A stretch of DNA of 41,401 bases from a virus, in the IMG/VR virus record IMGVR_UViG_3300036832_001461, positions 1-41,401 of that record; one strand, 5' to 3'. This document shows positions 1,445 to 39,267 of the stretch, one piece after another. The notes below the pieces were generated by a model that saw only the letters and a list, made by a program, of their open reading frames with translations, searched no databases and had not been told where the DNA came from. The position numbers and the translations under genes are program-made. Position 1 is the stretch's first letter. Each line of letters begins with the position of its first letter.

Positions 1445-3870
1445 GCGATCCCTATGTCGGTCCCGTCTCCCCTGGACCTTTCACGGGTGGTCCTGACGCC
1501 AATATCCGCGGTGAGCAGGCCCGCACCAACACATCGCCGGGTGGGTCGGACCTGCCCAGTTCCATCGCCGCCGGGGTGGCGGCCGGGCTGCGGGGCCTGG
1601 AGGGCGTCATCGCCAGGCTGGACACCCAGCAGCAGCAGACCAACCTGTTCCTCTCCATGATGACCGGCAAGGCCACTCAGGGCGGCACCATGTTCGGCGG
1701 CACCTGGGGACCCATGGGCGTGGGCAGCACCACCCACACCACCGGCCGAGGCACCGTCCCCACCATCACGGCCCGGTTCGATGTCGGCGGTGGGGCGTTT
1801 GTGGAGCGACCGGATCCGACCAGCCTGCGGGGTCAGCCCGGTCAGTTGCCGAGTCGAGCCATGACCATGGGCAATCTGCGAACGCGGGCGGCACGGGCCA
1901 TCTCCACCTCGGGCTCGGGCATCTTCGGTCCCCGTCTGGAGACCTACGAGAACCCCGTCACCAAAGAGATCGAGACCCATGAACTGATTCGTGATTCAGA
2001 CGGCAATATCACCACCAAGAGGGTCGATCCCAAGGACGTGCCCAAGATGCAGACACGGGAACGCGTCCTGGGGACCTTCCAGGGAGCCCTGGGTCGAGCG
2101 GTGGCCGGAGAAGGCATAGGCGGCGTCGGCCAGATCGCCTCGGCCTTGCTGCCAGAGGCCGCTCTGCCGGGCGTAGGAGTTGCGCTAGCGGGCGGGGCGG
2201 TGGCCATGGAGGGCATCCGCATGGTGCAGAACCAGCGGGCGCAGAACGCCCAGTACCAGGCCATCCTGGGCGGCTCCAACATCTCCCAGTTCGGCCAGCG
2301 CGCTCAGGCCCTGGGCTTCGGGCTCACCAATATGTTCAGCTTCGGGGGCGGTCAGGCCCAGGAAGCCTTCATGGGGGCCACCCGGCTGGGCATGCGCGGC
2401 GGGGAGCGCACCGCCGCCCTGCACATGGCCGTAAGCGCCTTCAACTCCATGGGCATGAGCGTGGCCCAATCCCTGCAGGCCATGTCCATCCAGGCCCAGA
2501 GCGGCTACGAGAACTTCAGCGACCTGGAGAAGTCCCTCAAGGCCGTCACCCAGGCGGCCAAGGACACGTCCCAGAACGCCGATCAGGTCCGGCAGAGCTT
2601 CATCAGCGTGTACGGCTCCATGGTCGGTCAGATCGGCGGCGGGGCCGGGGTCCAGCAGGCGGCCCAGGGCATCGCCACCATGCAGACCGGGCTCGGTCGT
2701 CAGTTCGCCAACGTGAACTTCGCTGGCATGACCGATCAACAGCGCATGTACCAGATGGCCGCCGAGCAGGGAATGGGCTACAACCAGTTCGTGCAAAAGA
2801 CTCTGGCCAGCCCAGGGTTTTTGAATCAGGCCATCAATAAGAACATCAATCAGTTCATGACTGCTACCGGTGGTGGAGCAGCGAATGACGCCATAAACGC
2901 CGCCTTGAAAACCGGGCAATATCAAAGTGCTACCGGCAAGCTCTCCCCTGGGCAGATCACCAATCTGACCACTCAGGTCATGAACCAGCTTCCCCCCATC
3001 CCCCAGCTTCGCAGCGTCATGCAGGGAGCGCTCGGAATCGACACCTCGAACATGAGCGACCAGATGGTGGCTGAAGCCTACGTCAACTGGCAGGCCAATC
3101 AACTGCGGTTGCCAGCCGGTGGACCGGCCGGTCCTCAGAACATCAGCGCCGATCAACGTAGAGCCCTGGCCACTGCCGGTCAGCCTGTGCCGGGTCAGCC
3201 CAACCAGCCCGGTGATCCCACCGGGGTGTTCGCCCTGGGAGCGGCGGCCAAGGGCAAGGGCATCAAGGGCGGCACCACCATCGACGTGGGCACCATCGCC
3301 GGAGGTGGATCCCACGCCGCCCTGCGCCAGGCGTATCTGCGTCAGGTGGGGAGGTCCACGGCCGCCACCGGCCAGAACTCCCAGGTCATCGACAAGATGC
3401 TCAAGGACAATCAGTCCTGGAGCCGCCTCTACACGGTGCAGACGGCCCAGGGAGCCAAGACGGTCAACTTCCAGGACCTGATCACCAACTACGCCGATCA
3501 GGCCGCCTCGGGCGGGGTGACCATCGCCAGCGGCTCCGACCAGAACGGGGACCTGTCCGGGACCACGGTGGCGGCCAAGTACGGCGGGGATGTCAACACC
3601 GCCCTGCAGCAGGGCTTCAACGCCCCCTCGGCCAAGGAGGGCTTCAAGGGCAAGGACCGCAGCGAGGACATCAAGAAGCAGCGGGCCTCGGGGAAGGAGA
3701 AGCAGGTCCTGCAGATCTCGGCCACCCCGCAACTGCAGCAGCTTCTGTCCTTCGCCCTGAACGGCCAGAGCGTCACCTCCACCACCGCCACCAGCCTGGT
3801 GCCCTCCCTGGGTCCGGTCAACCCCGAGAGCCTGCCTGGTAGCGCCCCGAGCAACTACAGCGGGGTCTGA
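1441..3870 (+). CDS. Tape measure protein
   Basis: An 809-residue protein directly after the frameshifting chaperone, the fixed position of the tape measure gene. It is rich in Gly, Ala and Gln. A disordered Gly/Pro N-terminus is followed by a hydrophobic, possibly membrane-interacting stretch at about residues 225-260 (AALPGVGVALAGGAVAMEG), then a long Gln/Ala-rich helical middle and a low-complexity C-terminus. Tape measure proteins fill the tail tube, set its length and leave with the DNA at infection. At the usual rise of about 0.15 nm per residue this length would suit a tail of roughly 120 nm, which is an inference. No peptidase or transglycosylase motif was seen inside it; the wall enzymes are in the following genes. 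Starts as ATGA overlapping the chaperone stop. Confidence 0.85.
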   Translation: MSDPYVGPVSPGPFTGGPDANIRGEQARTNTSPGGSDLPSSIAAGVAAGLRGLEGVIARLDTQQQQTNLFLSMMTGKATQGGTMFGGTWGPMGVGSTTHTTGRGTVPTITARFDVGGGAFVERPDPTSLRGQPGQLPSRAMTMGNLRTRAARAISTSGSGIFGPRLETYENPVTKEIETHELIRDSDGNITTKRVDPKDVPKMQTRERVLGTFQGALGRAVAGEGIGGVGQIASALLPEAALPGVGVALAGGAVAMEGIRMVQNQRAQNAQYQAILGGSNISQFGQRAQALGFGLTNMFSFGGGQAQEAFMGATRLGMRGGERTAALHMAVSAFNSMGMSVAQSLQAMSIQAQSGYENFSDLEKSLKAVTQAAKDTSQNADQVRQSFISVYGSMVGQIGGGAGVQQAAQGIATMQTGLGRQFANVNFAGMTDQQRMYQMAAEQGMGYNQFVQKTLASPGFLNQAINKNINQFMTATGGGAANDAINAALKTGQYQSATGKLSPGQITNLTTQVMNQLPPIPQLRSVMQGALGIDTSNMSDQMVAEAYVNWQANQLRLPAGGPAGPQNISADQRRALATAGQPVPGQPNQPGDPTGVFALGAAAKGKGIKGGTTIDVGTIAGGGSHAALRQAYLRQVGRSTAATGQNSQVIDKMLKDNQSWSRLYTVQTAQGAKTVNFQDLITNYADQAASGGVTIASGSDQNGDLSGTTVAAKYGGDVNTALQQGFNAPSAKEGFKGKDRSEDIKKQRASGKEKQVLQISATPQLQQLLSFALNGQSVTSTTATSLVPSLGPVNPESLPGSAPSNYSGV

Positions 3871-5069: not shown

Positions 5070-6289
5070 TGGCCGCGCCCGCCTTCCAGCCCTACGCCCG
5101 CCAGAGCTTCCTGAACCGGAAGTTGCCGGGAGTCATGAACGCCTCCCTCAACGGGGTGCCCATGCGCCTCAACCCCACCAGCGTGGCCCTCTCCTACCAG
5201 GTCAAGACCTCGGAGATCCCCACCCTGGGTGGCATGGTGGTGCAGATCTTCGGGGTGGAGATGAGCGACCTGGTGGTGACCGGGACCTTCGGGGTGGGTG
5301 GTTACGGCGAACAGCAGCAGTTCCTCAACCGCATGTTGGCCATCGCCAGCATGCAATCCGATCAGACGCTGACCACGCCTTCCCCTTCCCATCCCGTCCG
5401 CTTTACCTATCCCAATCGCGGCTTCGATTTCATGGTCTATCTCAAGGATTACACCTCGACCGCAGGCATGGCCATCGACTACGAGAACGTCAACATCGCC
5501 CCCGACTGGCAACTCACCTTGTTCGTGGACACCGACAACACGGGCGGCGGGTTCACCAAGGTGGCCGCCGACGCCTACATCCAGCGGCTGTCCAACGGCC
5601 TGGGCTACAACCTGGGCAAGTACAACGGCAATCTCAGCACTTCTGACATCGAGCAGTTCCTGGCCCAGCAGGGCTTCGCTAACGACCCCCAGGGCTATCT
5701 GAACGCCGCCTTCGGGGGCGCGGCTCAGCAGCCCGCACAGACCGCTACAACGGGCTCTGGGACGCCTCCAGCGGCCGGTGGCTCCCCGGCTAGCTCTGCC
5801 GATCCCAACATGACCATCCTGGGTCCCGCCACGGCCACGGCCAAGCAGATCCTGAACTTCTGGGGCAGCCGGGGCCAGCCCCCCAACCTGACCGACACCA
5901 TCCAGAACGTCATCGGCTGGTACCTCTCCGAGGGCAAGGCCCAGAATGTGCGCGGCGACGTGGCCTTCGCCCAGGCGTGCTGGGAGACCGGCTACTTCAC
6001 CAACAACGACACCAAGCTCAACAACTTCGCCGGGATCGGCCACCCGGTCAGCGCCCCCTCGGGTCTGGACTTCTCCAGCGCCCAGAACGGGGTGCGCGCC
6101 CAGATCCAGCTTCTCTACCGGGTGGTCCAGGGCAACTCGGCCCCGCTGGCCAACCCCACGGTGGCTCCCACCTGGGGCGGTCGCAACGTCACCACCTGGG
6201 CCGGGCTGGGTGGCAACTGGGCCGCTGACACCACCTATCCCAAGGACATCATGAGCATCTACGGACAGATCCTCTCAGCGAGTAAATAA
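5069..6289 (+). CDS. Tail/baseplate protein with tube-like N-terminal domain and C-terminal glucosaminidase domain
   Basis: A 406-residue paralogue of the gene before it. Residues about 9-215 align with the neighbour without large gaps and are roughly 80% identical by eye. After a Pro/Ala/Gly linker, the C-terminal domain (about 255-406) looks like the glucosaminidase (PF01832) family: RGDVAFAQACWETGYF contains the probable catalytic Glu306, and NNFAGIG follows. Such enzymes cut the glycan strand after N-acetylglucosamine. The pair therefore shares one structural anchor and carries two different wall-cutting domains. ATG 5069 overlaps the previous stop (TGATG). An in-frame start further upstream (4901) lies inside the amidase gene and was not used. 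Confidence 0.85.
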   Translation: MAAPAFQPYARQSFLNRKLPGVMNASLNGVPMRLNPTSVALSYQVKTSEIPTLGGMVVQIFGVEMSDLVVTGTFGVGGYGEQQQFLNRMLAIASMQSDQTLTTPSPSHPVRFTYPNRGFDFMVYLKDYTSTAGMAIDYENVNIAPDWQLTLFVDTDNTGGGFTKVAADAYIQRLSNGLGYNLGKYNGNLSTSDIEQFLAQQGFANDPQGYLNAAFGGAAQQPAQTATTGSGTPPAAGGSPASSADPNMTILGPATATAKQILNFWGSRGQPPNLTDTIQNVIGWYLSEGKAQNVRGDVAFAQACWETGYFTNNDTKLNNFAGIGHPVSAPSGLDFSSAQNGVRAQIQLLYRVVQGNSAPLANPTVAPTWGGRNVTTWAGLGGNWAADTTYPKDIMSIYGQILSASK

Positions 6290-7172: not shown

Positions 7173-9589
7173 TGGGCATCTTGGCTTATTCCCCCAGCAT
7201 CCGCTGCCTCATCGACACCCAGGCGGGCACCATCGACGTGTCCCAGGACATCACCCAGGGCATCGTGCAGCTACGCGAGAACGCCCTGCACACCATGAGC
7301 CTGGGCCTGCTCAACAAGCGGCGCAAGTACGACCGGGTCTTCACCCCCAACGATCGCTTCGTGATCTACATGAAGCGCATCCGGGAGATGCTGATCATAA
7401 CCGGCTACCTCAACACCGTGCCCTTCGTGACGGCCTGGCAGCGCACCATCACCATCACCGGCTCCTGCGCGGCCAAGCGACTGGCCTACCACTACTGGGA
7501 TCCCGGCCTGCCTGAGTCAGAGGCCCTCCTGGCCCATAACGGCATCCTGGGTGATCCGGCCAACGGCCCCGACGGGGGCATCTCCGCCAAGATGGAAGCG
7601 GTCCTGACCCAGGTCTGCGGGATGACCAACACCCAGATCCACATCGGGGTCATCCCGGCTAGCTGGATGAGCAAGATTGCCACTCTCTACAACGCCGTCG
7701 AGGGCCAGTTCGGCAACTTCTACGCCTCTCTGGGCGGCTCCAACAGCCAGGGCTCGGCCACCGCCGCCAACGGGGCCACGGCCGGATCCACCAATCCCAT
7801 CCTGACCAGGGGCAAGTTCACCCTGCCCAACACCCCGCCCGGCGTGGACCTGCCCACCAACATGGGGCCGGTGACCGGCGCGGCCCCACTCACCATGGGC
7901 ATCCAGGCCCCCAAGGATCAGTTCTGGATCGCCATGCAGTGGGGCTACCGGCTCGGCCCGGATGGCACCAAGAACACCCCCGGCATTGACAAAGTCAAAA
8001 GCACGGCCTGGTTGGCCAAGCGCAAGATCATCGTGGCCAACCCCAACTCCAATGCTGCCGCCATCGTCTACGCCGTGGGTTGGGGACCCAAGCAGGTCTC
8101 CAAGGGCATCCAACCCCAGATCTGCCTGGACAAGAAGCTGATGCAGGCGCTGGGCATCCTGGAAGGGGACTTTGCCGAGGTGGCCTGGGTGGATCCCAAG
8201 GAGGAGGCTGCCGACGCCTTCGGGGTGATCTCGGGGGCGGCGGCCGGGAGCGCGTCAGGGAGCGGGCAGACGGCCGGAACCTCCAACACCTACTCCTCGG
8301 CGGCCACCGGGACGGTGCAGGTGGTGTCGGTGGCCGGGCTCAACGCGGCCAACTGGGCCACGGCCAAATGCACCGCCAACCCACCCATCCCTTATGCCAT
8401 GGGTGGTACCGGGCCTAACAGCTATGACTGCTCAGGACTGACCTCGCAAGCTTGGCTCAACGGCGGAAAGATCCAGATCCCTCGCACCTCCCAGACTCAG
8501 TACGCGGCCATGCATGTGCCCAATATGACCGTGGCCCAACTCGAACCCGGTGACCTGATCTTCTACGAGGGCATCCCACCCGGCCACGTCACCATGTGGG
8601 TGGGCGGCAACAAGATGGCCGAGGCTCCCCAGACCGGGGAGATGCTGCACATCACCGACTACCGCTCCGACTCGGTGGGGTTCGGCCGTCCTTCTGACGC
8701 CGCGGCCAAGGCCGGTACCACCAGCATTCCCACCGGCAGCACGGCCGCCACCGCCACCGATAGCAGCAGCGCCACCCAGCAGCTAATCACCGAGTGGGAC
8801 TGGTTCGGCAACGGCCCCGATCCGCTCAGCATGCAGCTTTCCGGGGTGCGCTCGCTGATGAACGACCAGCCCGTGCTGCCCTTCATCAACATGCTGGCCA
8901 ACGCCTCACAGCGGTCCTGGTGTTCGGCTCCCAATGGGGATTTCATCAGTTGGTTCCCGGACTTCTTCGGGGTGTACCAGACGGCCGGGATCATGGATGT
9001 CACCAGCGTGGAGCTTCAGGACTTCACCATGGTCTGGTCCGACGAGAGCCTGATGACCCACCAGTTCACGGCCGGGACCTACATGCCCTCGGTGTTCGGG
9101 TCCACGCCGGGCGGCCCTACCGCGGTGGGCAACATGGCCATGACCATGGGCATCGCCACCGTGCAGTCTCCCCAGATCCTCAAGGCCCTGCTCAATCTGA
9201 GCGAGGCCGACATGGCTCCCAACGGGTCCGGCTCGATCCTGATCAAGGCCCTGCTGAACCGCTTCGGGGTGCGGCCGGTGTTCACCTCCATGCCGACGAT
9301 CGTCGGTCACCTGGCCGAGTTCTGGTACGCCCTCTACCTATTTCAGATGAACTGGGCCAGCCAGTTCAACACGGTCATCCCCATCACCTTCATGCCCGAG
9401 CTTTACCCCGGCATGCTGCTGCGGCTCAAGCAGTTCGGCTTCCAGTGCTACATCACCGGGGTGACCCATACCTTCAACCTGACCCAGGGCGGTGGGTTCA
9501 AGACCGATGTCAACGTCATCGCCCCCTCGGCCACCGACAACTCCGGGCTGTTCGGATTGGCCAAGGGCGGATTGAGCGGGCTGGTATGA
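7172..9589 (+). CDS. Baseplate hub-like protein with internal NlpC/P60 endopeptidase domain
   Basis: An 805-residue protein. An NlpC/P60 papain-like domain at about 385-510 is inserted between two structural regions and flanked by Ser/Thr/Gly-rich linkers. YDCSGL gives the nucleophile Cys420 and GHVTMWVG the catalytic His472, with the usual PGDLIFYEG segment between them. This family cuts peptide bonds in peptidoglycan stem peptides. The flanking regions (1-230 and 540-805) carry no recognised motif but have the size and position of a hub, in T4 terms gp27-like, followed by a spike gene and then gp25 and J homologues. The protein would sit at the tail tip. Together with the two genes upstream, the tail carries amidase, glucosaminidase and endopeptidase activities. 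Confidence 0.8.
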   Translation: MGILAYSPSIRCLIDTQAGTIDVSQDITQGIVQLRENALHTMSLGLLNKRRKYDRVFTPNDRFVIYMKRIREMLIITGYLNTVPFVTAWQRTITITGSCAAKRLAYHYWDPGLPESEALLAHNGILGDPANGPDGGISAKMEAVLTQVCGMTNTQIHIGVIPASWMSKIATLYNAVEGQFGNFYASLGGSNSQGSATAANGATAGSTNPILTRGKFTLPNTPPGVDLPTNMGPVTGAAPLTMGIQAPKDQFWIAMQWGYRLGPDGTKNTPGIDKVKSTAWLAKRKIIVANPNSNAAAIVYAVGWGPKQVSKGIQPQICLDKKLMQALGILEGDFAEVAWVDPKEEAADAFGVISGAAAGSASGSGQTAGTSNTYSSAATGTVQVVSVAGLNAANWATAKCTANPPIPYAMGGTGPNSYDCSGLTSQAWLNGGKIQIPRTSQTQYAAMHVPNMTVAQLEPGDLIFYEGIPPGHVTMWVGGNKMAEAPQTGEMLHITDYRSDSVGFGRPSDAAAKAGTTSIPTGSTAATATDSSSATQQLITEWDWFGNGPDPLSMQLSGVRSLMNDQPVLPFINMLANASQRSWCSAPNGDFISWFPDFFGVYQTAGIMDVTSVELQDFTMVWSDESLMTHQFTAGTYMPSVFGSTPGGPTAVGNMAMTMGIATVQSPQILKALLNLSEADMAPNGSGSILIKALLNRFGVRPVFTSMPTIVGHLAEFWYALYLFQMNWASQFNTVIPITFMPELYPGMLLRLKQFGFQCYITGVTHTFNLTQGGGFKTDVNVIAPSATDNSGLFGLAKGGLSGLV

Positions 9590-18965: not shown

Positions 18966-19280
18966 ATGTCGTCGCTGGAAGTGAGTCTGAACGTGGCCAT
19001 GGCACGGCTGCGCGTTATCGAGGAGGCTTTGCACGGCCAGCATGAGTGGTCCATGCGCTTCGTCAGCGCCAATCCCACCTGGCAGATCGAGGCTCAGGTC
19101 CACTTCTCCGACCAGGGGGTGCAGTTCCTCACCCCGGTCCCGGCTGGTATCAGCTATGCCACGGTCGAACTGCTCATGGATGACGAGGTCGTTCTGATTT
19201 GCACCGACCCTCATAGCTCGAATCATCCCTATCTGTACGTCTGGGGTTTAGACCTGGAGAGCTTCTCCTCAATAACGTGA
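18966..19280 (+). CDS. Unknown protein of 104 residues
   Basis: ATG 18966 was chosen because an almost perfect Shine-Dalgarno sequence, GGAGGTGA (18953-18960), lies 5 bases before it. The longer in-frame ORF beginning at 18756 would overlap the fibre gene and was rejected; GTG 18957 lies inside the ribosome binding site. An N-terminal helix (about 1-28) precedes a beta-rich part. The C-terminal LYVWGLDLESFSSIT ends in a GTGA overlap with the helicase gene, so the two are probably translated together. No family recognised. Confidence 0.65.
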   Translation: MSSLEVSLNVAMARLRVIEEALHGQHEWSMRFVSANPTWQIEAQVHFSDQGVQFLTPVPAGISYATVELLMDDEVVLICTDPHSSNHPYLYVWGLDLESFSSIT

Positions 19281-20869
19281 CCTACATCGCCCCTTTTGAC
19301 CTGAAACCCTTTCAGGTCGATCTGGTGGTTCAAGGGCTAACACAACCATCGCTGTGTATCGGGGCCGACTGTGGGGCGGGCAAGACCGCCATCGGCCTGT
19401 GCATCGCCTGCATGCTCCTGGACGAAGGCCAGATCGACCACGTCCTGCTGGAGTGCGAGAAGTCCAAGCTGGACGAGTGGGAGCAAGACCTGCGGACCTT
19501 CACCCGAGCATCGGTCGGTGTGCTGAGTGGGGGTCCGCAGAAACGCCAGGGGGTGATCACCGACCCGCCCCAGATCATCCTGGGAGTCTACGAGACCGTC
19601 CGGGCTGAGATCGCCCACCAGGAGAAGGTGCGGGTAGGTGGACGCGAGCGCAACAAGCTCATGCCGGGACCGCTGGCTCAGGTCCTGGCGGGCAAACGGA
19701 TCCTGATCATCTGGGACGAGGCCACGGCCAAGCTGGGGGCTGATCGGGGCTCGGCCATGTACCGCCACCATGAGCTACTGCTCAAGCACCTGCGAAAGAC
19801 GGGCTCGGTGCGGGTCATGCCCACCACCGCCACCGTGGTCGATCGAGATCCCGAAAGCTGGTTCAACCTGGCCCGGCTCATGGACCCCCCGGCGGCCGGG
19901 CGGGTGGAGGACTTCGAGACCCATCACGTCGGTCGGGACCGCTATGGCAAAGCCATCGTGTTCAAATGCCTGACTCCCGATGACTGCCCGCCGGGGGTGC
20001 CATCCCTGCAGGAGAAGATCGGTCATCTGGCCGTCTTTAAGTCCAAGTTCGATCCCGACATTTCCCAGTTTTTCCCCAAGATTGCTCCGCCTATTTCCAC
20101 TTACGTAGACCTGGGCCAGCGCCATCAGGAGTTCTACGAGATCATCGCCCAGACCGACGAGGACCATCGCGGTGACTGGCAGTGGAACCGCCAGCTATTC
20201 GGGGTGCTGCGCCAGATCGCCGGGCACCCGCTGGCCCTGGTCCGCAGTGTGGAGATGGCCCGCGCCGAGAAGCGGGACTTCCCCCAGGTGGCCTCCATGA
20301 TCGTGCGAGAGGTGGGTGTAGCGGGCCTGGAGGCCCTGGGGGCGGCCAAGCTGGACGTACTGGTGGACCGGCTCCACAAGGACGTGCGGGGCACCCAGGT
20401 CCTGGTCTTCACCTTCTACGGCCAGTCCATCCTGCCCCTGATCGAGGAGCGCCTGGTCAAGGAGGGCTTCGAGGTGGTGGTCAACCATGGTGGGCTGTCC
20501 TATGCCCAGCGCCGTCGGGCCATGGCCGACTTTCGAGACGGTGCCCAGATCTTCCTGTCCTCCGACGCCGGGTGCCGGGGCATCAACCTGCCCGAGGCCC
20601 AGTGGGTCATCAACTACGAGATGCCGTTGACGCACTCGAAGTGGTGGCAGCGCATCAACCGGGCGAATAGGCTGGACTCCCATCACCTCATCACCTACGT
20701 GAACGATCTGATCGTGCGGAACACCATCGAAGACGGGATCGTAGGGCTGGGGCTTAAGCGTCATGCTTGGTCGGACAAACTCACTGATGACAATGAGGAT
20801 GGGTCCAACTATCTTTCAGCAGACATTCGACGGCGGTTGATGAGGATCAGTCGCAAGCAAGGAGCGTAA
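19277..20869 (+). CDS. Superfamily 2 DNA helicase, SNF2/DEAD-like
   Basis: A 530-residue helicase, GTG start in a GTGA overlap. The N-terminal RecA-like domain holds a Q-like motif (LKPFQVDLV), Walker A GADCGAGKT (Lys36) and Walker B IIWDEAT (Asp147-Glu148). The C-terminal domain has the motif V-like region IFLSSDAGCRGINLPEAQWV and motif VI QRINRANR from residue 458, the arginine-finger motif. The motif arrangement is closest to SNF2/Rad54-type translocases as found in many large phages. It would remodel or unwind DNA in replication, recombination or transcription; which one cannot be told. It sits between the tail module and the noncoding block. Confidence 0.85.
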   Translation: MTYIAPFDLKPFQVDLVVQGLTQPSLCIGADCGAGKTAIGLCIACMLLDEGQIDHVLLECEKSKLDEWEQDLRTFTRASVGVLSGGPQKRQGVITDPPQIILGVYETVRAEIAHQEKVRVGGRERNKLMPGPLAQVLAGKRILIIWDEATAKLGADRGSAMYRHHELLLKHLRKTGSVRVMPTTATVVDRDPESWFNLARLMDPPAAGRVEDFETHHVGRDRYGKAIVFKCLTPDDCPPGVPSLQEKIGHLAVFKSKFDPDISQFFPKIAPPISTYVDLGQRHQEFYEIIAQTDEDHRGDWQWNRQLFGVLRQIAGHPLALVRSVEMARAEKRDFPQVASMIVREVGVAGLEALGAAKLDVLVDRLHKDVRGTQVLVFTFYGQSILPLIEERLVKEGFEVVVNHGGLSYAQRRRAMADFRDGAQIFLSSDAGCRGINLPEAQWVINYEMPLTHSKWWQRINRANRLDSHHLITYVNDLIVRNTIEDGIVGLGLKRHAWSDKLTDDNEDGSNYLSADIRRRLMRISRKQGA

Positions 20870-21222: not shown

Positions 21223-21563
21223 TCATCAACCTTCGCAAGCGGTTTGAGTTGGCCGTGGGCAAGGTGATCACCGAGAGCTTCTCCGATGGTCCAGAGGACG
21301 TGTCCTGGTGGGTCAGCCTGGGTCAGGTCAACCTGGGTGAATGCGAGACTTGCGGCCACGATGTGATCAAGCCCTGCGCCAGCATTCATATCAACATCTT
21401 CAACAATGAAGACGAGCGTTTATGCGAGATCAACGCCGACATGCCCACCTTGTTGACGCCCGGTGATATTCGGGCCGCGACCAGGGAGTTGGTGGACGGG
21501 TATCGCATCGACGCCTTGGAGAACCGGCTGGCCGATCACGATCATGACCATGAGCAGGGTTAG
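21219..21563 (+). CDS. Unknown protein of 114 residues, last gene before the noncoding block
   Basis: Start TTG 21219 lies in a TTGA overlap with the previous stop; no ATG offers a better start near the N-terminus. The N-terminus is basic (LRKRFELAVGK), a CETCGHD motif near residue 41 could bind metal with other Cys/His residues, and the C-terminus is a His/Asp run (ADHDHDHEQG), also a possible metal site. No family recognised. The gene ends at TAG 21561-21563, where coding density stops for about 650 bases. Confidence 0.6.
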   Translation: MIINLRKRFELAVGKVITESFSDGPEDVSWWVSLGQVNLGECETCGHDVIKPCASIHINIFNNEDERLCEINADMPTLLTPGDIRAATRELVDGYRIDALENRLADHDHDHEQG

Positions 21564-21572
21564 AGCCTCTGC

Positions 21573-21600
21573 TTGACGGGACCACTTGAGGTGGTTTAGT
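21573..21600 (+). promoter_or_regulatory. Candidate promoter with a dyad in the spacer
   Basis: TTGACG (21573-21578) and TTTAGT (21595-21600) are separated by 16 bases and match the -35 and -10 consensus at 5/6 and 4/6 positions. The spacer contains ACCAC-TTGAG-GTGGT (21581-21595), an inverted repeat that could be an operator or a hairpin. Transcription from here would begin just before the long-range helix. It is a prediction from consensus only. Confidence 0.4.
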
Positions 21601-21617
21601 CTAAGCGCCCTGCATAG

Positions 21618-21737
21618 CTGTACCGGTCGGGCAGCCTTGGACGCTACTAAGGAGTGCTGCTTCCAAGGATCTGCTGTTTGAGTTCCCCAAGTCCAGCCAG
21701 GCGAAGTCCTGACGGGCTGTCTGACCACTCGGTACAG
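21618..21737 (+). ncRNA. Candidate structured RNA domain closed by a long-range helix
   Basis: CTGTACC (21618-21624) pairs with GGTACAG (21731-21737). Directly inside, GGTCGGGCAGC (21625-21635) pairs with GCTGTCTGACC (21716-21726) through 11 pairs, two of them G-U. The right strand has a 4-base bulge (ACTC). Inside this 18-pair helix, CCTTGG (starting 21635, sharing one base) pairs with CCAAGG (21663-21668) and contains a smaller ACT-AAGG-AGT hairpin. The G-U pairs favour RNA over a DNA dyad. It does not match tmRNA, RNase P, SRP RNA, tRNA or a group I intron core as far as can be judged by eye. The strand is assumed from the transcription direction of the neighbours. Confidence 0.5.
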
Positions 21738-21776
21738 GGCGATCACCTTTATCTCGCGAGGAGGGTGACCGTCAGG

Positions 21777-21916
21777 GTCTCCCCTACAGGAGACTCGGCT
21801 CCGACCAGGAGCCAGGCTTTCGCGCCCATTCGCGGATGCCCGGCTCCGGGAGTCGTCGGGCTTGGCCGGAGGCCAGACCCCACATGCCTTTCGAGGCCGC
21901 CGCAGGCGGCGTCCTC
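21777..21916 (+). ncRNA. Run of short perfect hairpins, possible second RNA domain
   Basis: Five hairpins follow one another. GTCTCC-CCTACA-GGAGAC spans 21777-21794 and GGCTCC-GACCA-GGAGCC spans 21797-21813. CGCG-CCCATT-CGCG spans 21821-21834, with CCCG-GCTC-CGGG (21839-21850) behind it. TGGCC-GGA-GGCCA spans 21863-21875. GCCGCC-GCA-GGCGGC spans 21896-21910, with GAGG/CCTC flanks to 21916. Such spacing of compact stems is unusual for phage intergenic DNA. None is followed by a T-run, so they are not intrinsic terminators. Confidence 0.45.
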
Positions 21917-21951
21917 TCAGGCTAGAAAGGTTTTGTGTCTATAAAGAGTTC

Positions 21952-22001
21952 AAAGGCTAACTTATATATGTTCGCGTATAAGGTTGGCCTTTAAGGGCCA
22001 A
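21952..22001 (+). promoter_or_regulatory. Two mutually exclusive hairpins, attenuator-like
   Basis: Hairpin A pairs 21952-21966 with 21977-21992: 15 pairs including one T-G wobble and one bulged G, with a 10-base loop TATGTTCGCG. Hairpin B is TTGGCC (21984-21989), loop TTTAAG, GGCCAA (21996-22001). The strand TTGGCC is shared, so only one of the two can form in a transcript. This switch-like geometry is seen in attenuators and riboswitches, but no T-tract follows and no known aptamer was recognised. It lies in the A/T-rich part of the block. Confidence 0.45.
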
Positions 22002-22014
22002 TAGACGCGCGCGT

Positions 22015-22032
22015 TCGGACAAATCGGACAAA
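22015..22032 (+). repeat. Tandem 9-base repeat TCGGACAAA x2
   Basis: TCGGACAAA occurs at 22015-22023 and again immediately at 22024-22032; TCGGACC at 22060-22066 is a partial third copy. Short direct repeats next to an A/T-rich stretch can be initiator or repressor binding sites (iteron-like). Confidence 0.5.
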
Positions 22033-22052
22033 GCCGTCCTCTCTAACATGAC

Positions 22053-22081
22053 TTGATAATCGGACCAGGGTGTGCTAAGCT
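22053..22081 (+). promoter_or_regulatory. Candidate promoter for the 22220 operon
   Basis: TTGATA (22053-22058), a 17-base spacer and TAAGCT (22076-22081) preceded by TGC, an extended -10 arrangement also seen at 23291-23299 (TGCTAACGT). The predicted start would be near 22088, inside a dyad, which gives a leader of about 130 bases before the TTG at 22220. Confidence 0.4.
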
Positions 22082-22102
22082 CTCCGGCGGAGAGTCCTGG
22101 TC
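22063..22102 (+). other. Nested dyad overlapping the candidate promoter
   Basis: GACCAGG (22063-22069) pairs with CCTGGTC (22096-22102) and encloses CTCTCC-GGC-GGAGAG (22080-22094), a 6-pair stem with a 3-base loop. It covers the spacer and -10 region of the candidate promoter, so it may be an operator or cruciform rather than a transcript structure. Confidence 0.45.
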
Positions 22103-22115
22103 TGTCTCCCCTGGT

Positions 22116-22127
22116 AAACGGCCGTTT
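22116..22127. repeat. Perfect 12-base palindrome AAACGGCCGTTT
   Basis: The 12 bases read the same on both strands without a spacer. This suits a dimeric DNA-binding protein. It lies about 30 bases downstream of the predicted transcription start and 93 bases before the next gene. Confidence 0.5.
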
Positions 22128-22219
22128 CCTCCCTCCGGGGAGGCAGGTGAGCCACCCAGGGAGGTTCAGCAGGTCAGGGCTCTCTGCCCGAAGAAATCCA
22201 CCACAACCCGGAGCATCCA

Positions 22220-22612
22220 TTGCCAATCAATATCGAGATAACCGACGACCAGATTCTGGTCACCGCCGAGAACGGCACCAGGGTTGCATTGTCCCGCCGC
22301 ACCGGCACCATCATCCCCCCACCGGCCTCCACCGGCACCCCGCTCAAGCTGCACAAGCCCCGTGCGCCCCGTGCCACCGCCCCCGACCAGATCAAGGTCA
22401 GCCCCCGCTGGATCCTGCGGGTGGGCGACTTCGTCCTGGGCCAGCACAAGCCCCGCGGCCGCAAGTTCCGGGCTCGGGTCAAGGCCATCAAGGTGGAGAA
22501 CGGCACCACCTACGTCCAGGTCCACGATCCTCGCAGTGGCGGTTGCTACCTCCTGGGCCTGGACCGCATCACCCGGCTGTCGGCCAAGGTGCAGAGGACC
22601 CTGGCGTCATGA
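22220..22612 (+). CDS. Unknown protein of 130 residues with SH3-like small barrel
   Basis: Start TTG 22220 has GGAG (22210-22213) 6 bases upstream; no nearby ATG in this frame. The N-terminal part (IEITDDQILVTAENGTRVAL) is beta-rich, a Pro/Lys/Arg-rich basic linker follows (about 35-60), and the C-terminal half (WILRVGDFVLGQHKPRGRKF and the strands after it) has the spacing of an SH3/KOW-like barrel. The basic linker suggests nucleic acid binding (inference). It is the first gene after the noncoding block and overlaps the next gene as ATGA. No named family recognised. Confidence 0.6.
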   Translation: MPINIEITDDQILVTAENGTRVALSRRTGTIIPPPASTGTPLKLHKPRAPRATAPDQIKVSPRWILRVGDFVLGQHKPRGRKFRARVKAIKVENGTTYVQVHDPRSGGCYLLGLDRITRLSAKVQRTLAS

Positions 22613-22974
22613 GCCACGCCGACGGCAAGACCAACTGGCCCCCTCGACCCGGCATCGACGGCACCTACCGGGACACCTGCATGGTCTGCATGCGGGCCAC
22701 CGACACCGCCCTGGCCTTCCGGGGCGAGGGGGAGTTCGTGGTGGCCGGGCTCATCTGCCTGGGCGTGCCCCACGACGACGCCATGCGGACGGTCGAGAAG
22801 GCTCCCAACCTGGACGACGTGACCATGACGGTGCGGGTCTGCGCCCGCTGCGTGGCCAAAGCCTCGGCCCCTTTCCCGCCCCCCAAGCTGATCCTGGAGG
22901 GTCACTCCATCCCCCTGGTGGCCCAGAGCCCCCAGCATCTGGGGGAAGGCGGCATCGCCCCCTACACGCCCTGA
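22609..22974 (+). CDS. Unknown protein of 121 residues with two CxxC motifs
   Basis: ATG 22609 in an ATGA overlap. CMVC near residue 25 and CARC near residue 80 could form one zinc site (zinc-ribbon-like), separated by a mixed helix and strand region. The C-terminus is Pro-rich. The longer in-frame ORF starting at 22072 overlaps the preceding gene and noncoding block and was rejected. No family recognised. Confidence 0.6.
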   Translation: MSHADGKTNWPPRPGIDGTYRDTCMVCMRATDTALAFRGEGEFVVAGLICLGVPHDDAMRTVEKAPNLDDVTMTVRVCARCVAKASAPFPPPKLILEGHSIPLVAQSPQHLGEGGIAPYTP

Positions 22975-22989
22975 CCCCAGCCGTCTAAA

Positions 22990-23274
22990 GTGGTACCGGA
23001 CGAACCGGTGGCGAGGCCCGCCCTTACCACCGGGGGAGAGGGAGGGCCGGACCTGGATCCGCCGCCGGGTCCCCCTCCCTCAGCCAACAGTTCATATGAA
23101 CTATCAGATTCTCCCGTGACCGTCACACCCGCCGACGAAGATCTCTGTGTCTGCGGCCATCCGGCTTCTGACCATCACCGGAGTTGGTTTCGAGGGGGTG
23201 CCATGCTGATCGAGGAGTGTGAGACCTGGGAGGACGAGTGTGACTGTCAGAGGTTCGTACCGGCCGCGACTTGA
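22990..23274 (+). CDS. Small Cys/His-rich protein, start uncertain
   Basis: The certain part is the C-terminal 50 residues: LCVCGHPASDHH followed by CETWEDECDCQRF, a Cys/His cluster of the kind common in small actinophage proteins and likely to bind zinc. From GTG 22990 it has 94 residues, but the first 35 are Pro/Gly-rich, the DNA there forms dyads (CCGGTGG/CCACCGG at about 23006-23034), and there is no ribosome binding site. GTG 23116 would give 52 residues and is equally possible. The stop overlaps the -35 box proposed for the DinG-like gene. Confidence 0.5.
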   Translation: MVPDEPVARPALTTGGEGGPDLDPPPGPPPSANSSYELSDSPVTVTPADEDLCVCGHPASDHHRSWFRGGAMLIEECETWEDECDCQRFVPAAT

Positions 23275-23299
23275 CCGCTCTAAGGAAACCTGCTAACGT
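23271..23299 (+). promoter_or_regulatory. Probable promoter giving a leaderless DinG-like mRNA
   Basis: TTGACC (23271-23276), 17 bases, then TGC-TAACGT with the -10 hexamer at 23294-23299. The ATG lies 7 bases after the -10, so the transcript would begin at or one base before the start codon. No ribosome binding site precedes that ATG, which agrees with leaderless translation, common in actinobacteria. The TTGA overlap at 23271 could alternatively be a coupled start. Confidence 0.5.
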
Positions 23300-23306
23300 A
23301 CTTCCC

Positions 23307-25328
23307 ATGACCACCACCCCCCACAGCGTGACCTACGCTGACGTTGAGGCCCGCCTGCCGGAACTGATCCCCGGCTACGAGCGCCGCCTGCCCCAGGTCC
23401 AGCTTTCCGAACTCATCACCCAGTCCCTGGGCGAGGGCTTCCACACCCTGGCCGAGGCGGGCTGCGGCACCGGCAAGTCCTTCGGCTACCTGATCCCCTC
23501 CATCCTGTGGACCACCGCGGGCCGCAACGCCAACGGTGAGCCCCGCCGGGTGGTCGTCGCCACCGCCACCAAGGCGCTGCAGGACCAGGTCACCGACAAG
23601 GACCTCCCCAACCTGCAAGGCTTCTTCGCGGAGGCGTTCGGCATCGACTTCAAGTACGCCCTGCTCAAGGGCCGCTCCAACTACCTCTGCGTCGGCCGGG
23701 CCATGGCCACCGACCCCTCCGAGGTGGACGGCCTGGGCGAGATCGTCCGCATCGCCAACGAGCGCCTGGAGGACAAGTCCTTCGGCGGCGAGAAGGGCGA
23801 CTTCGAGGCCCTCATCGGCCGGGAGATCCCCTTCGCCCAGTGGGCCAAGGTCCGGGCCGACTCCGACAACTGCTCGGTGCATGGCTGCTCCCAGACCAAG
23901 CAGTGCTACGCCACCCAGGCCCGTGTCCGGGCCGCCGACGCCAACATCGTGGTCGTCAACCACGCCGTGCTGTTCGCGGACCTGCTGTTCTTCAACGCCC
24001 TGATCGGTGACTACCAGGTAGTCGTCTTCGATGAGGCCCATGAGGCCCGCGAGTACGCCCGCTCGGCCCTGGGCAACGAGTTCACCGAGGGCTCTCTGCG
24101 GGGACTGCTGGCCGAGGCCCGCAACCTGGTCAACCGGGAGTACGACAACCACGCCGCCGCCCTGGGCGAGGCCCAGCGCGACGCCCAGGCCGCCCAGACG
24201 GCCCTCTTCGAGAGCTTCGACAAGCTGCCCGAGATCGAGAAGGGCTCGGGTGTGGCCCGCCTGGGCCAGGCCGACATCGTCCTCAATCAGGACGGCTGGG
24301 CCGACTACATCATGGCCATCCAGGTCTACGCCGGGGTCCTGGCCCGCATCGCTCCCCACCTGGACTCGGTCAAGCCCAAGGACCTCCTCCCCTACGAGCG
24401 CCGCCTGCAGATCCTGAAGAAGCGCTCCGCCAACCTGGCCCACAAGGTCACCGACCTGGTCCTGGCCGACTTCGATGACCTGGTCCGCTGGGTCGAGGTC
24501 GAGGGCTCGGGCCGCGATCGCAAGCGCACCGTCAAGTCCTGCCCCATCGATGTCAGCCCCTGGCTGCGCGAGAACCTCTTCGCCAACGTCACCGCCATCC
24601 TGACCTCGGCCACCCTCCAGGTGGCGGGCAAGTTCGACTTCGTGGCCAAGCAACTGGGCATCGATGAGTACCGCGAACTCAACGTGGGCACGCCCTTCGA
24701 CTTCACCACCCAGGCTATCACCTACGTACCCAGCCTGCCGGATCCCTCCCGCGAGCGGGCCGCCTTCGACAATGCTGCCGTCAACGAGATCCGCAGCCTG
24801 GTCAGCGCCAGTGACGGCCGGGCGCTGGTGCTGTTTACCTCGACGCGGGCCATGCGGAACGCCTACGAGGCCCTCAAGGACATCCTGCCCTACACCTGCC
24901 TGATCCAGGGCGAGGCCCCCAACAAGGTGCTGGCCGCCCGCTTCTCCGCCGACACCCACTCGGTCCTCTTCGCCACCCGTTCTTTCATGACCGGCGTGGA
25001 CTTCCAGGGCGAGACACTCAGCCTGGTCATCGTGGACAAGCTGCCCTTCCCGGTGCCCACCGAGCCCCTCTTCGAGGCCGAGGCCGAGTGGCTGGAGCGC
25101 CGGGGCGGCAACGCCTTCAACGGCCTGAGCGTGCCCATGATGAGCCTGGTCCTGTCCCAGGCCGCCGGGCGGCTCATCCGTCACCGCTCAGACCGGGGCG
25201 TCATCGCCATGCTGGACCCCCGCCTCTGCTCCAAGGGCTACGGCAAGCGCATCCTGAAGACCCTGCCCCCGGCCCCGCTGGTGCGGGACCTGGGCGCGGT
25301 CAAGAGCTTCTTCGAGGAGGTGAAGTGA
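23307..25328 (+). CDS. DinG/XPD-like superfamily 2 helicase with iron-sulfur cysteines
   Basis: A 673-residue helicase from ATG 23307 (a TTG at 23271 would add 12 residues). Walker A is AGCGTGKS (Lys57) and the DEAH box is residues 242-245. Cys128, Cys189, Cys194 and Cys200 have the spacing of the 4Fe-4S cluster of XPD/DinG helicases, placed between motifs I and II as expected. SQAAGRLIRHRSDRGVIAMLD near the end is motif VI. Known relatives move 5' to 3' on single-stranded DNA and resolve R-loops, D-loops or other structures. Likely helps replication or recombination. It probably has its own promoter, and its stop overlaps the next start (TGATG). Confidence 0.88.
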   Translation: MTTTPHSVTYADVEARLPELIPGYERRLPQVQLSELITQSLGEGFHTLAEAGCGTGKSFGYLIPSILWTTAGRNANGEPRRVVVATATKALQDQVTDKDLPNLQGFFAEAFGIDFKYALLKGRSNYLCVGRAMATDPSEVDGLGEIVRIANERLEDKSFGGEKGDFEALIGREIPFAQWAKVRADSDNCSVHGCSQTKQCYATQARVRAADANIVVVNHAVLFADLLFFNALIGDYQVVVFDEAHEAREYARSALGNEFTEGSLRGLLAEARNLVNREYDNHAAALGEAQRDAQAAQTALFESFDKLPEIEKGSGVARLGQADIVLNQDGWADYIMAIQVYAGVLARIAPHLDSVKPKDLLPYERRLQILKKRSANLAHKVTDLVLADFDDLVRWVEVEGSGRDRKRTVKSCPIDVSPWLRENLFANVTAILTSATLQVAGKFDFVAKQLGIDEYRELNVGTPFDFTTQAITYVPSLPDPSRERAAFDNAAVNEIRSLVSASDGRALVLFTSTRAMRNAYEALKDILPYTCLIQGEAPNKVLAARFSADTHSVLFATRSFMTGVDFQGETLSLVIVDKLPFPVPTEPLFEAEAEWLERRGGNAFNGLSVPMMSLVLSQAAGRLIRHRSDRGVIAMLDPRLCSKGYGKRILKTLPPAPLVRDLGAVKSFFEEVK

Positions 25329-31342: not shown

Positions 31343-32080
31343 GTGAAAATATCCCACCGGGCGACGACCACCGTCGCCCTCTCTGCCGCCTTCCTGGGCG
31401 GCCTGCTTTTTGCTGTGCCCATGGCGGCTCAGGCTGCACCCCCACCAGTGACAGGAGCAGTGGTCCCGGCCAGTGGTTCGCCCCCGGAGGTGGTCCTCAC
31501 GGCAGCGGCCCCGACGGCCCTTCCGAAGTACCGAGTCGTTGCAGGCGACTCGCTCTGGGCCATCGGAGTCCGCTACCACCGGTCATGGACAGCCCTCGCC
31601 GCCTATAACCGGGACCTGATCCCGAACCCGAATCTCATCTATGTCAACCAGGTGATCACCATCCCACCTGCCACGTATACCGGTTCGGTGTCACTACCTG
31701 CTCCGACCCCGTCGGTCTCCCGGTACTCACCTCCCGTCACGCACCACTACTACTCGGCTCCGAGGGTGACTTATACACCTCCCGCGCCCCGCCCGGTGAT
31801 CAGGCAGAGCTACAGCGGTGGCAGTGGCTCGGGTGGGTTCACCGGGGTGTGGGCCTGCATCGCCCAGCATGAGTCGGGCGGCAACGCCGCCACCAACACC
31901 GGCAACGGCTACTACGGTGGGCTCCAGTTCACCCTGGGCACCTGGCAGGCCAACGGGGGCTCCGGCAACCCGGCCAACGCCAGTGCGGCCGAGCAGCAGC
32001 GGGTGGCCAACAACGTGGTAGCCGCCTCCGGTGGCTCCTACGGGGCTTGGCCCAACACCAGTCGCATGTGCGGCGTATAA
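31343..32080 (+). CDS. Secreted LysM and Rpf-like (transglycosylase-like) wall enzyme
   Basis: A 245-residue protein from GTG 31343. A Sec signal peptide is clear: basic MKISHR, a hydrophobic core to about residue 25, then AAQA cleavage site (about 31). A LysM domain follows at about 62-108 (YRVVAGDSLWAIGVRYH, ending in VNQVITIPP), then a Pro/Tyr/Ser linker. The C-terminal 80 residues match the Rpf catalytic fold: WACIAQHESGGN carries the probable catalytic Glu, and GNGYYGGLQFTLGTWQANGG is typical. The usual CESGGN cysteine is replaced by His; Cys lies four residues earlier and could pair with the one in the final RMCGV. Rpf enzymes cut glycan strands and wake dormant actinobacteria. A strong terminator follows. 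Confidence 0.88.
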   Translation: MKISHRATTTVALSAAFLGGLLFAVPMAAQAAPPPVTGAVVPASGSPPEVVLTAAAPTALPKYRVVAGDSLWAIGVRYHRSWTALAAYNRDLIPNPNLIYVNQVITIPPATYTGSVSLPAPTPSVSRYSPPVTHHYYSAPRVTYTPPAPRPVIRQSYSGGSGSGGFTGVWACIAQHESGGNAATNTGNGYYGGLQFTLGTWQANGGSGNPANASAAEQQRVANNVVAASGGSYGAWPNTSRMCGV

Positions 32081-32113
32081 GCTGAAGCGGCTTCGTGAGA
32101 GCCGTACAACCAG

Positions 32114-32155
32114 AAGCCCCCGGTCTCTCGCTCTCCGCCTGTGACCGGGGGCTTT
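32114..32155 (+). terminator. Strong intrinsic terminator after the Rpf-like gene
   Basis: AGCCCCCGGTC (32115-32125) pairs perfectly with GACCGGGGGCT (32143-32153), with one further A-T pair (32114/32154). A 17-base loop separates the arms and a short T run (TTT) follows. It ends the metabolic operon before the replisome operon. Confidence 0.8.
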
Positions 32156-32186
32156 GCCCTTCCTGGCCTGTGGAAAACCACATGGG

Positions 32187-32216
32187 TTGATCGCCCATCA
32201 TTGCAGGTGGTAGCCT
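32187..32216 (+). promoter_or_regulatory. Candidate promoter of the replisome operon
   Basis: TTGATC (32187-32192), 18-base spacer, TAGCCT (32211-32216). The match is moderate, but a promoter is needed between the terminator and the 32343 gene. Just upstream, TGTGG-AAAA-CCACA (32169-32182) forms a small dyad. The predicted leader of about 120 bases would contain the long hairpin below. Confidence 0.35.
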
Positions 32217-32267
32217 CCCGCCCAGAGGTCATCCGGGCTGGATCCCTTTGAACTCAAGACGTGCGTA

Positions 32268-32310
32268 TTGGCCGTCCCACCTTCTGCTGGCCGGTGGATG
32301 GGACGGCCAA
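32268..32310 (+). promoter_or_regulatory. Perfect 12-base-pair hairpin in the leader of the Sm-like gene
   Basis: TTGGCCGTCCCA (32268-32279) is fully complementary to TGGGACGGCCAA (32299-32310), with a 19-base loop. There is no T-run after it, so it is not a simple terminator. It ends 32 bases before the ATG at 32343 and could control translation, stabilise the mRNA or bind a protein. Confidence 0.6.
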
Positions 32311-32342
32311 CTCTCTCCCCTCTGGGGGAATCGGGGTATCGG

Positions 32343-38829: not shown

Positions 38830-38844
38830 CAAGATGTCCTGGAT

Positions 38845-38887
38845 GGTGGGTGGCCCGCTCATGGGGAAGTGACCGGGCTCACCCACC
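38845..38887 (+). promoter_or_regulatory. Strong hairpin between the SSB-like gene and the next gene
   Basis: GGTGGGTG (38845-38852) pairs with CACCCACC (38880-38887), continued inside by CCCG (38854-38857) with CGGG (38874-38877), giving 12 pairs around a 16-base loop. A pyrimidine tract follows, then an excellent ribosome binding site (AAGGAGAT) before ATG 38917. It may reduce read-through or protect mRNA ends. Confidence 0.5.
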
Positions 38888-38916
38888 CTCTCTCCTCTCT
38901 GGCTGGAAGGAGATCC

Positions 38917-39267
38917 ATGAGTACCTGGCCTTGCCCGGCTGGCACGGTGGTACGAGCGGTACACCCGGAACTGGACATCCCCATTCGCACCGCCTGCCGG
39001 GGCCACCTGTTCCAGACCATGAACTCGGCTGTCCCGGTGGAGAGCAGCTACTCCGAATGCCGCTATGTGCAGGTCGTCACCTGCCTGGTGTGCGGCTATA
39101 TCACCGCCCAACTAGACGCTGACTGGTTCCACGAAGCCACCGACGATGACATCGGTGATTGCATCTACTACGTGGAGCAGATCATCGAGCATCTGAAGGA
39201 GCGGCGCGAGAACCTGGTCAAGCTGTCCAGCAAGACCCCGGCCTTCACCTTACCGGCGGACCTATGA
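38917..39267 (+). CDS. Unknown protein of 116 residues with possible zinc site
   Basis: ATG 38917 was chosen for its AAGGAGAT ribosome binding site 5 bases upstream; the in-frame ATG at 38869 lies in the hairpin. Contains CRGH, a cysteine in SYSECRY, and CLVCGYITAQLD, which may together bind zinc. The C-terminal half is a helix (CIYYVEQIIEHLKERRENLV). Stop and polymerase start overlap (ATGA). A small polymerase-associated or regulatory protein is possible; no family recognised. Confidence 0.65.
   Translation: MSTWPCPAGTVVRAVHPELDIPIRTACRGHLFQTMNSAVPVESSYSECRYVQVVTCLVCGYITAQLDADWFHEATDDDIGDCIYYVEQIIEHLKERRENLVKLSSKTPAFTLPADL

Follow-up and report, generated by a model that had tools for sequence, protein, structure and literature searches.

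The window, that is, the whole stretch of DNA analysed, is a virus record of 41.4 kb, and the block under study occupies its positions 21564-22219. Tail-type genes and the gene of a DEAD-type helicase (19277-20869) lie upstream of the block; one of the tail-type genes encodes a protein of 1909 AA with about 25% identity to baseplate and minor tail proteins from phages of Gordonia and Mycobacterium. The gene directly ahead of the block encodes 114 AA, its stop codon being 21561-21563. Downstream of the block, gene 22220 with its TTG start codon at 22220 is followed by genes for a DinG-like helicase (ORF from 23271), a thymidylate synthase-like protein, an exonuclease, a lysin-like protein, a helicase loader, a DnaB-like helicase and a primase. 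For the product of gene 22220, a small β-barrel domain was predicted at the C-terminus (AlphaFold pLDDT of about 89 for the C-terminal half), and a fold search returned only weak, Tudor/chromo/SH3-like matches. The coordinates of all features are listed in Table 1.

A promoter type of the form TTGmyn - 17 nt - TAACGT/TAATGT, with TGC in front (TGA once), recurs at 23271-23310 of the window and at 43398(-), 50620(-), 79398, 80368, 83141 and 84114 of a related contig (G003). In most cases an ATG is found 6-8 nt past the second hexamer, a spacing suggestive of leaderless mRNAs. For the DinG-like helicase, the TTG listed as its start (23271) is probably the -35 hexamer of such a promoter, and the true start the ATG at 23308. 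These leaderless-looking promoters and the distant similarity to actinobacteriophages hint at an actinobacterial host for the phage.

Relatives were found by searching IMG/VR with the two helicases. One contig (L003/L004) encodes helicases 89-90% identical to those of the window. In three further contigs (L005-L007) the helicases are 82-83% identical to those of the window, and these contigs are mutually identical over the block, which is found at the same place in all contigs L003-L007. The comparative argument rests on three distinct sequences: the window, L003 and L006 (the latter equalling L005 and L007 over the block). The contig G003 (L007) has a length of 157 kb and ends overlapping by roughly 140 bases, hence its map is probably complete; the same gap is at 629-1067 and the same helicase at the contig's other end. 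More distant phages (about 31-45% helicase identity) have one or both helicases in common.

The initial annotation described the block as free of genes, and this was confirmed: from the stop codon of the 114-AA gene to the TTG at 22220, the sequence holds no convincing gene. None of the ORFs in the block has a stop position common to the three related sequences; the window ORF 21654-21944 is frame-shifted in L003 by a 1-nt indel, and no intact gene was found in the block of the related phages checked. The accompanying statement that the rest of the window is almost without gaps was too strong, as the chain of ORFs leaves 22939-23270, 32081-32267 and 38830-39158 among others, whereby this crude chain reports gaps inside likely genes as well. 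Two other stretches of the window also had low folding energies: 38830-39158 when read from the - strand (z -4.35), and 32001-32320 when read from the + strand.

Table 1. Positions of features in and around the gene-free block (window coordinates; "/" separates the two sides of a helix).
Feature	Position	Strand	Remarks
Upstream flanking gene, 114 AA	21219-21563	+	Conserved, 55-74% identity in L006 and L003
P1 promoter-like sequence	21573-21602	+	TTGACG - 18 nt - TAGTCT; conserved in three sequences
Palindrome ACCACTTGAGGTGGT, operator-like	21581-21595	.	In P1 promoter spacer; conserved as ACCACTTNARGYGGT
Putative structured RNA	21608-21930, ends approximate	+	Identity, alignment fold, models R1 and R2 finding orthologs
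Domain 1	21618-21737	+	Helices P1 and P2, inner hairpin P2a
Helix P1	21618-21624/21731-21737	+	CUGUACC/GGUACAG; L006 CUGCACC/GGUGCAG
Helix P2	21625-21636/21715-21726	+	GGUCGGGCAGCC/GGGCUGUCUGACC; L006 GGUUGGCAGCC/GGACUGUCCGACC
Hairpin P2a	21637-21644/21659-21666	+	CCUUGGACGC/GCUUCCAAGG; L006 CCCUGGACGC/GCUUCCGGGU
Domain 2	21738-21813	+	Hairpins P3, P4 and P5
Hairpin P3	21738-21750/21761-21773	+	
Hairpin P4	21775-21782/21789-21796	+	GGGUCUCC/GGAGACUC; L003 GAUCCUCC/GGAGGAUC; L006 GCCCUUC/GGAGGGC
Hairpin P5	21797-21802/21808-21813	+	GGCUCC/GGAGCC, nearly invariant
Region of hairpins P6 and P7	21863-21910	+	P6 21863-21867/21871-21875
Hairpin P7	21896-21901/21905-21910	+	GCCGCC/GGCGGC; L006 GCGGCCC/GGGCCGC
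AT-richer spacer	21926-22030	.	43% GC; non-conserved hairpin
P2 promoter (predicted)	22053-22081	+	TTGATA - 17 nt - TAAGCT; TGC ahead of second hexamer
5' leader hairpin of gene 22220	22085-22190	+	Long, near-perfect; L003 counterpart 8787-8905; absent in L006
Downstream flanking gene 22220, 130 AA	22220-22612	+	Conserved, 58-75% identity

The block looks like three parts: an RNA gene with its promoter (21573 to about 21930), the AT-richer spacer (21926-22030) and a promoter with a leader (22053-22219). Between the window and L003, identity amounts to 91% in the RNA (about 21604 to about 21925), compared with 66% in the spacer that follows and 80% in the leader. In L006, the identity of the RNA drops to 65%, with its helices largely kept. 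Folding of the whole block gave -298.5 kcal/mol on the + strand vs -256.5 ± 7.0 in 20 shuffles (z -6.0) and a z of -2.4 on the - strand, but was set aside as proof of structure, since conservation does not extend over the entire block. From the initial annotation of a block packed with hairpins, the structure beyond chance is retained, whereas the stems do not form one unit and conserved structure is confined to about 21604-21925.

The three-way alignment of the RNA was folded with RNAalifold, which yielded -97.3 kcal/mol on the + strand vs -74.6 ± 4.9 in 60 column shuffles. This corresponds to a z of -4.65 (0/60 shuffles as good), compared to -1.67 on the - strand. The domain of helices P1 and P2 and the domain of P3-P5 reached z -3.65 and z -5.07, respectively, on the + strand; no structure common to all three sequences is present in the AT-richer stretch (z -0.6) or in the leader (z +0.9). 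The RNA part of the window, folded as a single sequence, stood out only moderately and on both strands alike (z -2.9 for +, -2.8 for -). In the MAFFT alignment, 90.4% of the cells are paired vs 37-51% with the partners slid. Pair changes on both sides numbered 5 in this alignment vs 2.3 ± 1.1 in shuffles (7/500 as high), a control which leaves the relatedness of the three sequences in place.

Further compensatory changes were seen on an alignment made by hand. Such realignment is needed for P2a and P7 to fit L006, in which P7 then stays paired through different bases. The compensatory changes are located in helices P1, P3 and P4. Helix P1 shows a change from U-A to C-G, and hairpin P4 two changes between the window and L003, its closest relative. 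Hairpin P2a has a conserved C-U mismatch, and the interior of helix P2 beyond P2a is ambiguous. The RNA region is under selective constraint, with conserved + strand structure and no shared ORF. Judged from these alignments, the case for a conserved RNA structure is good, not overwhelming, with three sequences and modest covariation.

No family of Rfam 15, GOLLD and ROOL included, matched the window at the gathering cut-off or the 140 kb searched of the 157-kb relative; a permissive scan gave matches far below the cut-off only. Neither tRNA nor tmRNA was detected in the window or the 157-kb relative. A comparison with annotated phages showed no DNA similarity, and among plasmids the matches were limited to 39 nt in two from Pseudonocardia (E 9e-3). 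A covariance model of the RNA (R1) was run over 58 sources and found the known orthologs only, plus sub-significant matches. It did not find the RNA in the more distant phages sharing helicases. Unfiltered R1 searches of short stretches behind the same helicase gave best E values of 0.29 (L029), 0.036 (L026) and 0.7 (L009), whereby the match in L026 aligns little more than one hairpin. In 396 genomes from the phylum to which an Acidimicrobiales genome belongs, the RNA model gave no match (with stricter filters and no positive control), nor was anything found in six other genomes. IUPAC patterns of three conserved RNA segments retrieved, from all of IMG/VR, the known orthologs and chance matches only. 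The contigs L183 and L192 reached 24 bits with model R2, but had been picked for containing the P5 motif and gave no match to R1; they were rejected as carriers of the RNA. A comparable phage RNA was not encountered in the literature searched, mostly outside subscription journals. As far as the pattern searches of IMG/VR and the sampled genomes show, the RNA appears to be an undescribed family of one small phage lineage only.

Two of the more distant phages have gaps at corresponding helicases. In L026, a gap of 507 bases (3045-3551) lies between the same two helicases (45% identical) and contains a promoter-like TTGACC and the palindrome CGAACGGTCGTTCG, as well as a short hairpin and a GC stem resembling a terminator; its + strand fold has a z of -6.0 and its sequence does not match the RNA. 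In L029, a gene-poor gap of 654 bases (5084-5737) behind a homologous helicase is very GC-rich and hairpin-rich, and gave no match to the RNA model.

The P1 promoter-like sequence ahead of the RNA reads TTGAC[AG], 17-18 nt, TA[CG][CT]CT in all three sequences. Its assignment as a promoter rests on conservation and position, because a generic scanner made no call; the scanners used called neither promoters nor terminators on the + strand at the RNA. Transcription would start at about 21608-21610. The palindrome ACCACTTNARGYGGT in the promoter spacer, a putative operator, is present as a single copy in the window, and likewise in the L003 locus and in the 157-kb relative. At the other end, P7 is followed in the window by TCCTCTC, a pyrimidine-rich run, and may act as a terminator; an obvious U-rich terminator is absent behind the RNA in the window. 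Past P7, L006 has the stem AGGCUGU-UAA-ACAGUCU with a U-run (fold z -3.0), of which L003 carries a weaker version in its sequence. The suggestion of a structured RNA in the initial annotation thus finds support in the position of the RNA, its identity with a sharp drop at the end, the + strand consensus fold, the compensatory changes and the promoter-like sequence.

The spacer behind the RNA has a GC content of 43-45% in all three sequences and an identity of 38-66%; it is about the tenth lowest GC stretch in the 157-kb relative and not exceptional genome-wide. The predicted P2 promoter was recognized in all three sequences as TTGATA/TTGACA/TTGCTA - 17 - TAAGCT/TAAAGT with TGC before the second hexamer. 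Its first hexamer is TTGACA in L003 and TTGCTA in G003, and the promoter resembles others of the phage. The leader hairpin, folded singly, has a z of -4.15 in the window and of -3.39 in L003, and is possibly an mRNA stabiliser or a means of translation control.

We propose, with a probability of roughly 55%, that a phage gene at positions 21608-21930 (approximately) specifies a self-standing structured RNA, which is transcribed from its own promoter and acts in trans via a protein. The P1 promoter would drive rightward transcription of the RNA, and the palindrome in its spacer would probably let a dimeric regulator switch the RNA gene. The transcript is predicted to form a closed stem of two helices plus an inner hairpin (P1/P2/P2a) and, after these, the hairpins P3-P5, P6 and P7; it would end near P7 or just past it. 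Gene 22220 and the following genes would be served by the separate P2 promoter. Most likely, the RNA would work in trans by binding a protein, be it a component of the host's transcription or translation machinery, a defence protein or one encoded by the phage; that the RNA is bound by the product of gene 22220 is speculation. An independent, trans-acting transcript was given most weight because of its own promoter-like sequence, the terminator-like stem in L006, the poorly conserved spacer and the separate promoter. That the RNA represents an undescribed phage family of about 320 nt, which has a repressible promoter and acts in trans via a protein on host transcription, translation or defence, is a tentative assignment, to which we give somewhat less than even odds.

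Transcripts from the P1 promoter might instead run into gene 22220, the RNA being a cis-acting leader of the downstream early operon, i.e., an attenuator or a put-like antiterminator, which would act on the polymerase or message of its own transcript. The RNA begins at a promoter-like sequence and heads a long block of genes on the same strand (running to about 40 kb in the 157-kb relative), the put RNA of HK022 is similarly situated just downstream of early promoters (PMC9378689), and a clear U-rich terminator is lacking past the RNA in the window. However, a separate conserved promoter and a non-conserved spacer lie between the RNA and gene 22220, the terminator-like stem with its U-run stands behind the RNA in L006, and the RNA has about four times the size of the put RNA. 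We regard a cis-acting leader as unlikely.

A replication origin, at which the P1 transcript primes replication in the AT-richer stretch behind it, is quite improbable. It would agree with the arrangement kept in all three sequences, in which promoter, structured transcript and AT-richer DNA succeed one another, and with the helicase genes flanking the region. However, the origin proposed in the initial annotation obtained no support from GC skew, repeats or AT-richness: the window has no GC-skew switch at the block, the 157-kb relative lacks a clear two-arm skew and has its cumulative minimum a few kb upstream of the block, no repeat array was found in the block, and the AT-richer sequence is neither exceptional in composition nor conserved. 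A decayed gene or plain GC-rich regulatory DNA with incidental hairpins would fit the single-sequence fold (z -2.9 on +, -2.8 on -) and other stretches of the window scoring alike after GC adjustment, but is very improbable in view of an RNA region more conserved than the adjoining spacer, a strand-specific consensus fold better than all shuffles and the lack of a common ORF.

In transcript-primed phage origins, such as the primary origin of T7 and oriF of T4, a promoter is followed by an AT-richer stretch. The block shares this arrangement, whereas its main feature is a conserved RNA structure, and a skew switch and repeats are missing. The put RNA of HK022 comprises about 70 nt in two stem-loops and acts in cis (PMC9378689). 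Like put, the RNA described here follows immediately on a promoter and stands at the start of an early gene block; unlike put, it has about 320 nt, a long closed stem plus several hairpins, and a separate promoter after it. Nearest in kind, as large phage RNAs, are GOLLD and ROOL, large structured RNAs of phages and prophages to which a function is not assigned; many GOLLD RNAs exceed 800 nt, and both are often found near tRNA islands (PMC12286853). In contrast, the present RNA has about 320 nt and no Rfam match at the gathering cut-off, and tRNAs are absent from both the window and the 157-kb relative. Hundreds of bases given to an RNA which encodes no protein are rare in phages, and GOLLD and ROOL are among the few large ones known. 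The RNA presented here is a further candidate with an apparent promoter and operator, and it is compact enough for probing and for moving to a plasmid. Should it indeed bind host polymerase, ribosomes or a defence protein, this would be a new RNA-based action of a phage on its host.
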